Assembly: GCA_944389475.1 (NCBI GenBank) | Contig: CALXMM010000009.1 | Coordinates: 1 to 64,000, forward strand | Length of the DNA: 64,000 bases | Source: an uncultured Clostridia bacterium | GTDB taxonomy: Bacteria > Bacillota > Clostridia > TANB77 > CAG-508 | Direction: 5' to 3' | Shown here: positions 7,184 through 10,951 of the stretch, piece after piece | Layout: every line of letters begins with the position of its first letter | How positions within the stretch are numbered: position 1 is the stretch's first letter | The notes under the pieces: model-generated | The model's input: only the letters and a program-made list of their open reading frames with translations | What the model was told of the DNA's origin: nothing | The model's database searches: none | Program-made: the position numbers and the translations under genes

Positions 7184-10100
7184 TTAACCTCCAGACACTA
7201 TTTGAGATGAAGGTGTTCCATTTATAAAGTCTGACCAAGGTGTTTCTGTATTAAATGTAAATTCTGGATATGATGGGCTATTGTATGGATTTCTATATTC
7301 TTCATTTTCTGCTAATGCTCCACGTACATATGCTCTTCCTTTCAATTGCTGTTCATAAGCTGTATTAGTTCCCCAATGATCTTGGAAATCTTGCATTGTT
7401 AATGTCTTCTTTTCATTATATATTTCTATAACATCTGAACACAATGAAGGACTTGCGTGGTGTAAATCTACCAGAGCATCCAACATGCTTTCCGACAATC
7501 CACTCTCATCATCTATATCATTTAAAATACTTTCTCTTGCAGCCTCTAATACCAAAAGGAATACATCTTGAGCCTCTTTCTTTGGAACTCTACCAGAAGC
7601 TAAATGTTCAGCAAAATCTGGATACATTTCTGGAACTTTTCCTGTGTTAGAAATAGCTTTTGTTAATCCAAATGCAGTTGTATTTCCTGCACCATCCGCT
7701 AGAACTGTTGTACCATAACTATCTCCCAAATCATATGAACCTTCACAACCACCTTCTAGTTTAACACCAAGCCAGAAGATGAATTTCTCAGGAAATTCAG
7801 AATCTATTCCATTCTTTACTAGTCTAACATAAGATTCTACATCTTCAACCATAGAATTTTCTCTGTTTATTAAATATAATCCTAAGTCAGAACTTGTAGT
7901 TGTTCCTATTACTGTTCCTTCTTTAATATATCTCTTTCCGTTTACTTCTAAATATGCAGGTGCATCAACTCTCTTTTTCTCTGCTTCATTAAATTTATTT
8001 AATACATCTTCTGCATCTCTAAAATCATCTGCTTGTCCATTTTCTATAAAATATCTTTTGGTGTGTGTTACTTTTTGATAATTAGATTTAGAACTTGAAT
8101 CTATAGTTCCCTTCTGGAATCCCCTTATATACATAATATATCCTGTACAAATATTTTTATATTCATTATAGAATTCTGAATATTCAGATACAGCTGAAGT
8201 ATCTAGTACTTTTATTTTTATGTAATCATTACCCTCTTCTAGAATTTCTCCCGTAACAGGTGAAACAACATCTAGTCCTGATTCGAATCCATCTACAAGG
8301 GTATTTAAAGGATTTGAAACCTCATCATTACTTTCTTCACTATCATCACTTTCTTCATCTAAATCTGGTACTCCACTATCAGTTGAAACAACAGTTGAAT
8401 CTGCATTATAGTTAGGTCCATATACATATGCTTGTGTCTCGGAATCTGTTCTTTCGCTACCATCTGCATTGTAACCAGCTTTTATATTATCTGTTGATAC
8501 TTTACTTCTAATTAATGTACCATAATCTGTCTGTTGTTTTTCAAATCTTCTTTGTGGCCAATATGTATTAATATATCCACTAATTGGCCATTGGAAAACA
8601 TGTGTATCTTGCATAACAAAATCATCTTGTGAGAAATATCCTAAGTCAACAAACAATCTTTTTAAATCTCTTAAAATATATTCAGAGTTTTCTGTTTTAG
8701 AATTCTCTAACATTGAAAATGCAGAAAGAGCATTTTGTCTAACATTTACTTCTTTAAAGAAGTTTGTTCCATCTTCTGTTTCTTTTGCTTCTACTGCATC
8801 TTCCGCATCCTGTCTCGCTGTGTCTTCACTCCTATGCCATAAATAAGAAGTATTATAAGCATCATTATATACTTTTCTTAAAGCATCAATTTTTTCTGCA
8901 GTTTTTTCGCTTCCATCATATACAAAATATTTTGCAGGATGTCCTTCGGTTCCAAGAAATAATTCTTTAGTATGTGGATTAGTCTCACCTCTTATAGCAT
9001 CTTCTACTTGTGTTACTACATTTGCACCAGAAACGGTTTCAATTGTATAGAATGAACCTTTATCATTTGGTGCTAAAGCACTATCCTCAGATTGGTCTGC
9101 AGGATTAAATACATTTTCATAAGTAGCAGAAACATTGGTAGAACCATATGCATTAAATCCATCATAATCTCCTGTATCATCTACAAATATTATATCTTTA
9201 TACCAATGGTTTACTACTTTCTTTATATACGGTTGAACTCTTTTTATATCCGTACCTTCACCCTGTCCTTTATCGTTGTTATAATCAATTGCTTTATTTA
9301 TTGCTTCTGTGGTTAAACCTATTTTATTTAATTCATCATTGAAAGTTTTTAATTTTTCTTCTGTTTTACCATTATATGTTTTTACAGTTTCTACATCTGC
9401 TTGAACATGTGGCAATAACTCATTAAATTTATCTTGTAAAAAGCTAAATAATTCATCTGCTTCATCATCAGAGATATTATCTTCACTTTTAGCTTCTTCA
9501 AATTTTTTATAATATTCATCCATTATACCTGTAGTACTATTATCATATTTCCAAGGAGTAAATGGATTTATATCATGTACAGTATTTCCCACAAGTTCTG
9601 CATATCTTTTTCCAACTTCATCAGTATAAAATTTTGCATCTGGATAATCTTTTTTTATTTCTTCAATTGCATAATCCATATCGGATTTATGATGAGTAAT
9701 AGTGTCACTTAAAAAATATTCGATACTGTGATCATAATTAACCACTCCACTCTTATCAGAACTATCATAACATTGTAATATAGTTTCATTATCTTTTACA
9801 TATTTTCTATTGTTTCCAGTATCTATTGATGCATCTATAAATGCCTGCAAATTACTTAAACCAGCATCTATATCTGTTATCATATCAGTTGTTTGATTAT
9901 TATCTATAAAATCTTTCAATTTTTGTAAATTCTCTACAGTTAATTTTTTATTTGCCACCGCTTGGTCTATATCTGCCAAGTCAGAGTCTACTGAAGCAAA
10001 ATTAGTAGTTATATTATCACCTGTAATATGATATTCAAATTTTATATTAGATGTAAATTCATCAGATGTTCCGATATGAATTTTAGTATCCTCTTCTTCA

Positions 10101-10951
10101 TCCATATCTAGTCTATAAACCAAATCTGGTGCCATAGTTGCTAAATGCAACGCTATTGATAATTCCAAAGGTTTACCATATCTTGCAGTCCATCCATCCA
10201 TATTAAATGTATAATAAGTAGATGAAAATAATCCTGGTTTCATTATAACTGTTAAAGTCTTACTTTCTGGATCTGCCTTTATATCATCAAGCCAACCTAT
10301 AGCAGATTCATCAATTTTAAGCGCACCAAATACTGCTTCCTGGTTATCTGGCCTTACTCCTAAAAAAGTCCCCACAACATTTCTTATACTATGAAGAACA
10401 TTAGATATTATCTGTCTAACCTTCATTTCTTCTACATATGTATTATAGTCCGCAGCTAAATAAGCATTAAGATATTTACTAGAAATAGTAGAGTCATCAT
10501 CCGCTTCTTCATCACTTATAAAATTTCCATCCTTATCCGTATATTGTCCAAATCCGTATTCATAAGGTGAATATCCCATGTTTTCCAAGTATTCTGCCAA
10601 ATCTTTTTGATCATCCTCATCAATATAAGCCTTACTTCCTTCATAAATACTCAATAGGTCTTGTCCTATACTTTCAGAAAATCCAGAAAGCTTATTAGTG
10701 ATTAGCCCTGGCATTTCAAGGAAAAATCCAATTACTCCAACGATTATAACAATTGCAACAATAATTCCTAGTATAATAAGAGCTATATAACCAAGTGCTC
10801 CAAAAGTCTTCAAACTATTAATAATCTTTACTATAAACTTACCTGTTTTTACTGTTTTAGCAGTTGCATTGCCAACCTTTTCAACTTTTTCCGCACCTGA
10901 AGATTGTTTAGTACTAGTTGTATCATTTAAATTTTGATTTTCGTCGTCCAA
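7184..10951 (-). CDS. large membrane-anchored T4SS protein with lysozyme-like (GH24-type) C-terminus
   Basis: 1255 residues with a TTG start (GGTGG seven bases upstream). A single strong membrane segment lies at about 50-80. The long extracellular part has unrecognised regions to about 880. Next is a stretch (about 895-1020) beginning SPVTGEILEEGNDYIKIKV and ending VIGTTTSSDLGLYLI, which recalls the beta-barrel of M23/LytM domains but lacks the clear metal ligands. Residues about 1055-1215 contain LEGGCEG and, later, ADGAGNTTAFGLTKAI, matching the Glu...Asp-x5-Thr layout of T4-type lysozymes. It is probably the VirB1-like wall-cutting component that opens peptidoglycan for the channel. Catalysis is inferred; the Glu-Asp spacing is longer than in T4 lysozyme. 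It sits between two NTF2-like genes. Confidence 0.7.
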   Translation of the reverse strand: MDDENQNLNDTTSTKQSSGAEKVEKVGNATAKTVKTGKFIVKIINSLKTFGALGYIALIILGIIVAIVIIVGVIGFFLEMPGLITNKLSGFSESIGQDLLSIYEGSKAYIDEDDQKDLAEYLENMGYSPYEYGFGQYTDKDGNFISDEEADDDSTISSKYLNAYLAADYNTYVEEMKVRQIISNVLHSIRNVVGTFLGVRPDNQEAVFGALKIDESAIGWLDDIKADPESKTLTVIMKPGLFSSTYYTFNMDGWTARYGKPLELSIALHLATMAPDLVYRLDMDEEEDTKIHIGTSDEFTSNIKFEYHITGDNITTNFASVDSDLADIDQAVANKKLTVENLQKLKDFIDNNQTTDMITDIDAGLSNLQAFIDASIDTGNNRKYVKDNETILQCYDSSDKSGVVNYDHSIEYFLSDTITHHKSDMDYAIEEIKKDYPDAKFYTDEVGKRYAELVGNTVHDINPFTPWKYDNSTTGIMDEYYKKFEEAKSEDNISDDEADELFSFLQDKFNELLPHVQADVETVKTYNGKTEEKLKTFNDELNKIGLTTEAINKAIDYNNDKGQGEGTDIKRVQPYIKKVVNHWYKDIIFVDDTGDYDGFNAYGSTNVSATYENVFNPADQSEDSALAPNDKGSFYTIETVSGANVVTQVEDAIRGETNPHTKELFLGTEGHPAKYFVYDGSEKTAEKIDALRKVYNDAYNTSYLWHRSEDTARQDAEDAVEAKETEDGTNFFKEVNVRQNALSAFSMLENSKTENSEYILRDLKRLFVDLGYFSQDDFVMQDTHVFQWPISGYINTYWPQRRFEKQQTDYGTLIRSKVSTDNIKAGYNADGSERTDSETQAYVYGPNYNADSTVVSTDSGVPDLDEESDDSEESNDEVSNPLNTLVDGFESGLDVVSPVTGEILEEGNDYIKIKVLDTSAVSEYSEFYNEYKNICTGYIMYIRGFQKGTIDSSSKSNYQKVTHTKRYFIENGQADDFRDAEDVLNKFNEAEKKRVDAPAYLEVNGKRYIKEGTVIGTTTSSDLGLYLINRENSMVEDVESYVRLVKNGIDSEFPEKFIFWLGVKLEGGCEGSYDLGDSYGTTVLADGAGNTTAFGLTKAISNTGKVPEMYPDFAEHLASGRVPKKEAQDVFLLVLEAARESILNDIDDESGLSESMLDALVDLHHASPSLCSDVIEIYNEKKTLTMQDFQDHWGTNTAYEQQLKGRAYVRGALAENEEYRNPYNSPSYPEFTFNTETPWSDFINGTPSSQIVSGG

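Follow-up and report, generated by a model that had tools for sequence, protein, structure and literature searches.

The C-terminal module of a 1255-residue wall hydrolase and the product of the adjacent downstream gene form one exchangeable cassette, as judged from the covariation of their sequences, and the scaffold of the hydrolase and the surrounding secretion machine appear to evolve separately from it. The hydrolase was found in the window, a stretch of 64,000 nucleotides from an uncultured Clostridia bacterium. It is probably the cell-wall-cutting, VirB1-type subunit of a chromosomal Clostridia type IV secretion system (T4SS), whose C-terminal module is a cassette exchanged together with a matched extracellular partner. 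What is new here, from the sequences compared, is that a chromosomally fixed T4SS carries a module that is exchanged and a partner that is inherited along with it; searches of the open-access literature returned no description of this architecture, which falls short of proving its absence. The parts of the hydrolase and its partner gene are as follows.

7184-10951, minus strand: wall hydrolase, 1255 aa (homologue searches and core profile)
10697-10834, minus strand: N-terminal transmembrane (TM) helix region, residues ~40-85 (sequence)
8402-10714, minus strand: conserved scaffold, residues ~80-850 (no Pfam or NCBIfam family; conserved in relatives)
7826-8287, minus strand: beta barrel of residues 889-1042, possibly a degenerate LytM/M23-like domain, lacking metal ligands (weak matches and sequence)
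7187-7825, minus strand: exchangeable C-terminal module, predicted GH24-like muramidase, residues 1043-1255 (profile family, alignment, Foldseek)
6534-7136, minus strand: putative cognate partner, 200 aa, consisting of a single TM helix and an extracellular domain of helices and four strands; it tracks the C-terminal module of the hydrolase

The open reading frame at 7184-10951 is genuine. It begins with a TTG codon, which is preceded by AAGGTGGTGAG, and has a good ribosome-binding site; its description in the first-pass annotation as a T4SS protein of 1255 residues was confirmed, including its position inside a T4SS cluster. A single TM helix is seen near residues 50-80. Direct searches of the whole protein against Pfam, NCBIfam and PHROG gave no match. 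The annotation had also left about 800 residues between the helix and the C-terminal domains unplaced, and in Pfam and NCBIfam this stretch indeed matches no family. Because it is conserved among relatives, it can be read as a true scaffold that is absent from the family libraries, with a family motif, NALSAFSMLEN...YILRDLK, at residues ~740-765. Homologues of the hydrolase were found in 24 of 95 relatives, and a profile of a 77-residue core motif detected the family in 105 of the 390 genomes examined from this family-level group, a single genome carrying as many as nine copies. The membrane anchor, the extracellular wall-lytic domain and the T4SS cluster, which are the traits expected of VirB1-type proteins, are all present, indicating that the protein is the VirB1-type wall hydrolase of the cluster, and it would be PrgK-like in function. 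It was filed as a variant of the VirB1-type hydrolases, rather than as a proven toxin.

The T4SS cluster spans about 4.9-25.3 kb of the window. In the order of transcription it comprises three VirB2-like pilins, PrgI/VirB3, the N-half and the ATPase half of VirB4, three VirB6-like proteins, a small membrane-anchored protein, the hydrolase, and further small membrane-anchored proteins. A coupling protein is encoded at a distance. Apart from the hydrolase and partner genes, the features are listed below.

4896-5918, minus strand: charged, soluble 340-aa protein conserved in the locus
5967-6521, minus strand: small membrane-anchored protein, possibly NTF2-like, not tracking the module
10964-11929, minus strand: 321-aa protein with a membrane anchor, conserved in the locus and a candidate VirB8-like subunit
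11968-13968, minus strand: VirB6-like protein
13970-17362, minus strand: VirB6-like protein with an N-terminal NlpC/P60- or CHAP-like domain
18876-20060, minus strand: VirB6-like protein
20155-22137, minus strand: VirB4 ATPase half, conserved order-wide
22162-23394, minus strand: VirB4 N-terminal half, a separate gene
23369-23740, minus strand: PrgI/VirB3-like protein
23771-25254, minus strand: three VirB2-like pilin genes (PF18895/PF04956)
52421-54445, minus strand: VirD4-like coupling protein (above the cut-off for the CD1115 family), encoded amid housekeeping genes at a distance of 27 kb

The first-pass annotation had placed a peptidase domain in the neighbouring VirB6-like protein. This is plausible for 13970-17362, as its orthologues match NLPC_P60 above the cut-off, although the window copy itself gives only CHAP at E=0.12.

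Residues 1043-1255, the last 213 of the hydrolase, are well supported by modelling as a divergent GH24 (T4-lysozyme-like) muramidase fold. In a Foldseek search, the C-terminus of an AlphaFold2 model (residues 878-1255, pLDDT 84) matched T4 lysozyme and pesticin-T4 lysozyme hybrids with probability 0.97-0.99. The target TM-scores were ~0.55-0.60 and the E-values were modest, partly because the query also contains the barrel. Phage lysozymes among predicted viral structures were matched as well. The lysozyme-like C-terminus proposed by the annotation, for which failure in structure comparison had been named as the refutation, was thus upheld. The window module and 18 other modules constitute one profile family, and two of its members approach the curated PF00959 cut-off of 22.3 bits from below (22.0 bits in G503 and 19.8 bits in G510). 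In the HMM search that had been recommended, the window copy itself gave no PF00959 match, and the family was approached through these homologues, just under the cut-off. No relatives turned up among plasmid or phage proteins, or when viral contigs were scanned with the module profile; a recent phage or plasmid source is thus unsupported.

Glu1066 (codon 7754-7756), Asp1086 (7694-7696) and Thr1091 (7679-7681) are invariant in an alignment of 10 diverse homologues. The Glu ... Asp-x5-Thr spacing noted earlier holds for the presence of the three residues but not for the exact distance: Asp-x5-Thr would give Thr1092, whereas the invariant Thr1091 makes an Asp-x4-Thr. The Glu and Asp are separated by 20 residues in the window module and by 9 in T4 lysozyme, which suggests that a loop has been inserted between them. 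The module shares with GH24 phage lysozymes (T4 lysozyme, PF00959) the catalytic Glu/Asp/Thr, the fold, and a C-terminal RRxxE-like motif that is seen in its homologues; it differs from them in the enlarged Glu-Asp loop, in an extra C-terminal FxxxTPWxDF tail, and in its fusion to a T4SS scaffold. Muramidase activity of the module would be expected from this likeness.

The preceding region, residues 889-1042, is beta-rich and conserved in homologues. It had been described as an M23-like barrel lacking ligands. The absence of ligands was verified, since residues 889-1042 of the window protein contain neither HxxxD nor HxH zinc ligands, and the aligned genus members lack them too. The M23 kinship is plausible and rests on slight similarity: one homologue matches PF01551 at E=0.009, and hhalign of the compact barrels with a true M23 domain, taken from the homologous locus of a different family in the order, gave a probability of 12% (E 0.0025, 70 columns). 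When the compact barrel alignment was searched as a profile against the PDB, it returned chance matches only. A degenerate LytM domain is the best reading of the barrel, and a suggestive one only. A comparable arrangement is known in PrgK of pCF10, whose LytM domain is crystallographically degenerate; the muramidase is the active domain there, and the LytM and CHAP domains restrain it (PMC11323569).

Relatives of the hydrolase keep the scaffold and barrel and end in different enzymes, with the point of exchange right after the barrel. Pfam families at or near the C-terminus of scaffold homologues are Phage_lysozyme2, Hydrolase_2 (SleB-like), Glucosaminidase, SLT and Lysozyme_like, and NlpC/P60, CHAP, C39, M15 and GDSL domains are inserted ahead of the barrel. 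Clustering of 62 modules gave at least 18 groups, several of them without a Pfam name. Where copies form tandem arrays, a single genome carries several kinds of module; in G218, two copies with 95% identical N-terminal scaffolds have unrelated modules. Other genera of the family carry larger multi-enzyme proteins in the same slot, such as one of 1918 aa that combines glucosaminidase, GDSL, GH3, phage-tail lysozyme and C39.

The gene at 6534-7136 lies directly downstream of the hydrolase, with a median gap of 18 bp in the family, and its sequence follows the module. Within the genus, mean partner identity is 0.61 between loci with the same module and 0.23 between loci with different modules, compared to 0.20 for shuffled sequences. 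The corresponding values are 0.80 and 0.79 for the scaffold core, 0.71 and 0.70 for the barrel, 0.68 and 0.61 for gene 5967, 0.67 and 0.65 for gene 10964, and 0.59 and 0.60 for gene 4896; the VirB6 proteins are equally identical in both cases. It can be seen that the gap between same and different modules is just 0-7 points for nine other gene segments of the genus, and no other tested gene of the cluster tracks the module as the partner does. Individual pairs of loci display the same pattern. Between the window and G010, the module is 21% and the partner 28% identical, and the other genes are 67-83% identical; between the window and G003, the module is 70% and the partner 54% identical, compared to 45-61% for the other genes and 70% for the scaffold core.

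A partial Mantel test on 62 module-partner pairs gave p=0.0005. In the same 62 pairs, 49 of 55 partners had a nearest relative with their own kind of module, where 2000 shuffles averaged 5.6 and reached 19 at most; for the nearest scaffold relative, the number was 18 of 55. These sequences are related and hence not independent events, and the scaffold comparison serves as the control for common descent. Partners thus resemble one another according to module rather than scaffold, and the unit of exchange is the module plus its partner. Adjacency alone might produce such a pattern, if recombination at the conserved barrel carried flanking DNA and the end of the hydrolase gene moved with its neighbour in the absence of any functional match. 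This is quite unlikely, however, as the exchange ends at the partner, the next gene (5967-6521) showing 0.68 against 0.61 where the partner falls from 0.61 to 0.23, and as the module-partner rule also holds across genera and in tandem arrays.

The model of the partner (pLDDT 91.6) consists of a membrane helix, a helical layer and four strands. Its structural matches are weak and NTF2-like, the best being a DUF3887 protein (probability 0.63, E 0.1), together with designed NTF2 folds. TraH of pIP501 stands far down the list of these matches. In a PDB profile search with the partner alignment, the matches covered the membrane helix or were due to chance. No correlation of charge complementarity was detected between modules and partners.

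The partner might solely serve as a docking adaptor of the VirB8-like type, in the way that PrgL serves PrgK, so that covariation arises from contact with the module and involves neither inhibition nor antagonism. Several Gram-positive systems do have VirB8-like NTF2 proteins that bind a VirB1-like hydrolase (PMC11323569, PMC11753425, PMC12857230), among them PrgL, which binds PrgK (PMC11323569). The weak NTF2-like matches and the presence of the partner even where no module exists agree with this reading. A partner docked mainly to the scaffold should nevertheless follow the scaffold, yet it follows the module, and two other conserved small membrane-anchored proteins of the locus could serve as VirB8. 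Docking alone is a real possibility but not the expected outcome.

Alternatively, the partner could be a true immunity protein that blocks just its own module, the module acting as an antibacterial effector that the T4SS delivers to, or displays against, neighbours, and the partner shielding the producer, as in a polymorphic toxin-immunity system on a Gram-positive machine. Several traits of such systems are present: the N-terminus is constant and the C-terminus variable (at least 18 clusters in 62 pairs), an immediately downstream gene covaries strictly with that C-terminus, tandem arrays bring different modules together in as many as 9 copies per genome, and extra partner-like genes occur that are not directly downstream of a hydrolase. 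The partner is also extracellular and membrane-anchored. Moreover, several GH24-like copies in the tandem arrays of G250 and G520 have no partner directly downstream, and the alignment suggests that the catalytic Thr has been lost from these copies. In a toxin-immunity system, however, partners would be expected solely at loci with a module, whereas partner homologues here also stand beside module-less scaffolds (G027, G275, G367 and G467), which weakens a strictly immune role; in the genus group of these scaffolds, the partners stay recognisably related across modules, at 30-42% identity. In addition, peptidoglycan is the target of all modules, delivery into another cell is not evident for a scaffold that stays membrane-anchored, and the nearest partner folds, although weak matches, resemble VirB8 docking subunits and not known inhibitors. 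Pure immunity is regarded as unlikely, though as a rival to be taken seriously. The wider proposal, an order-wide domesticated T4SS of gut Clostridia that uses polymorphic wall-hydrolase effectors with cognate immunity, sometimes in arrays of up to nine copies, against neighbouring bacteria, is rather unlikely as well. If true, it would represent, to our knowledge, the first set of toxins and immunity proteins linked to a Gram-positive T4SS.

A cognate docking-and-restraining subunit is favoured over a pure immunity protein because of the module-less partners, their likeness across modules, and the VirB8-like precedents. The partners beside module-less scaffolds, and the array copies with no partner directly downstream, do speak against a strict pairing of the two. 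As a docking-and-restraining subunit, the partner would contact its own module, dock it to the machine, and restrain it, possibly by inhibition, until needed. The scaffold would reach into the cell wall, where the module would cut the glycan so that the machine could assemble or reach another cell. Exchange of modules may match the cutter to different wall chemistries, either the cell's own or a neighbour's. The pattern allows a direct test, namely whether each partner restrains or docks just its own cutter, and either answer would tell how such machines handle the cell wall safely. The modules represent a natural library of matched hydrolase-partner pairs.

Among known systems, PrgK (pCF10, Enterococcus faecalis), a DELTA-class VirB1, is likewise a membrane-anchored T4SS hydrolase with a degenerate, metal-free LytM domain and a muramidase (PMC11323569). 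Its muramidase resembles phi29 gp13 and precedes a CHAP domain, whereas the window protein runs from scaffold to barrel to a GH24-like module at the very C-terminus; an exchangeable module or co-inherited partner was not found in the portions of the PrgK literature consulted. TraG (pIP501, ALPHA-class) and Orf14 (Tn916, BETA-class) are also anchored hydrolases with glycan- and peptide-cutting domains (PMC12857230), but these are of the SLT plus CHAP/NlpC type, belong to mobile elements, and lack the scaffold of the window protein. Polymorphic toxin-immunity systems, with X-Tfe/X-Tfi of the Xanthomonas T4SS, likewise pair a variable C-terminal module with a cognate gene beside it (PMC3482391, PMC10933484). 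In the present system, the module is carried by a structural hydrolase anchored in the membrane, peptidoglycan is the substrate of every module, and immunity is putative.

According to a recent review, roles of Gram-positive T4SS beyond DNA transfer are a long-standing open question (PMC12857230). The present machine, without a relaxase of its own, is conserved across an order of uncultured gut bacteria, and the tip of its wall cutter has been repeatedly swapped with a matched neighbour. The VirB4 half is 66-96% identical in about 70 of 95 genomes from five families (91-96% for most members of the genus, 66-80% for most of the order), and in relatives the cluster adjoins dacA and often aspS. 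Because VirB4 is conserved order-wide and no relaxase was found with the cluster, the machine looks chromosomally fixed and domesticated, like that of Patescibacteria. The parts consulted on the Patescibacteria/Southlakia epibionticum T4SS describe a chromosomal, mostly relaxase-less system of monoderms that likewise has several VirB2-like pilins, encodes TrsD (VirB4 N-half) separately, and has genes for wall-lytic proteins close to virB4 (PMC12102498, PMC12857230). The window host, in contrast, is of a Clostridia lineage, and a cassette-swapped hydrolase with a matched partner is not described for Patescibacteria in those parts.

Gram-positive conjugation systems have relatives of the VirB4, VirB6, PrgI and VirD4-like proteins, and the cluster might thus be the conjugation system of a mobile element with the hydrolase as an ordinary conjugative VirB1. 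This is very improbable in view of the order-wide VirB4, the fixed place of the cluster among housekeeping genes, and a PLSDB search in which no plasmid relatives of the hydrolase were found. The genome has no PF03432 or PF02486 relaxase. The conjugative-element reading was rejected, as the sole relaxase found, a Mob_Pre, lies on another contig next to a different VirB4 (28% identical), so that a separate mobile element is present in this genome.

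Paralogues of the scaffold, the conserved long N-terminal part of the wall hydrolase, carry differing C-terminal modules and occur in tandem arrays or as multiple copies, with 5-9 per genome (loci L063, L070 and L071 in genome G218; L079-L082 in G520 and G250; L089-L091 in G317). Genes of the small membrane-anchored partner often stand between the paralogues at these loci. The catalytic Thr appears to be missing from four GH24-like modules of array copies without a downstream partner:

L080:1396-2139
L081:14310-15053
L081:9576-10301
L082:3905-4654

Three partner-like genes were found upstream, not downstream, of a scaffold gene:

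G218, contig C2:126547-127095
G290, contig C5:47969-48562
G425, contig C51:17440-18036

In other genera of the same family, several enzymes are fused in one protein at the hydrolase position, for example:

L175:12669-18425, glucosaminidase, GDSL, GH3, phage-tail lysozyme and C39
L169:5948-10390, GDSL, beta-lactamase family and CHAP

The VirB4 half at window 20155-22137 retains 66-96% identity in about 70 of 95 genomes from five families of the order, which is unusually high conservation, beyond the usual T4SS level. A distinct element of the window's own genome (contig C24:1295-1900 and 9387-11135), which encodes a Mob_Pre relaxase and whose VirB4 differs from that of the window, is probably an ICE. 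Away from the main T4SS cluster, a VirD4-like gene stands among housekeeping genes:

window 52421-55349, VirD4-like coupling protein, then two small uncharacterised genes
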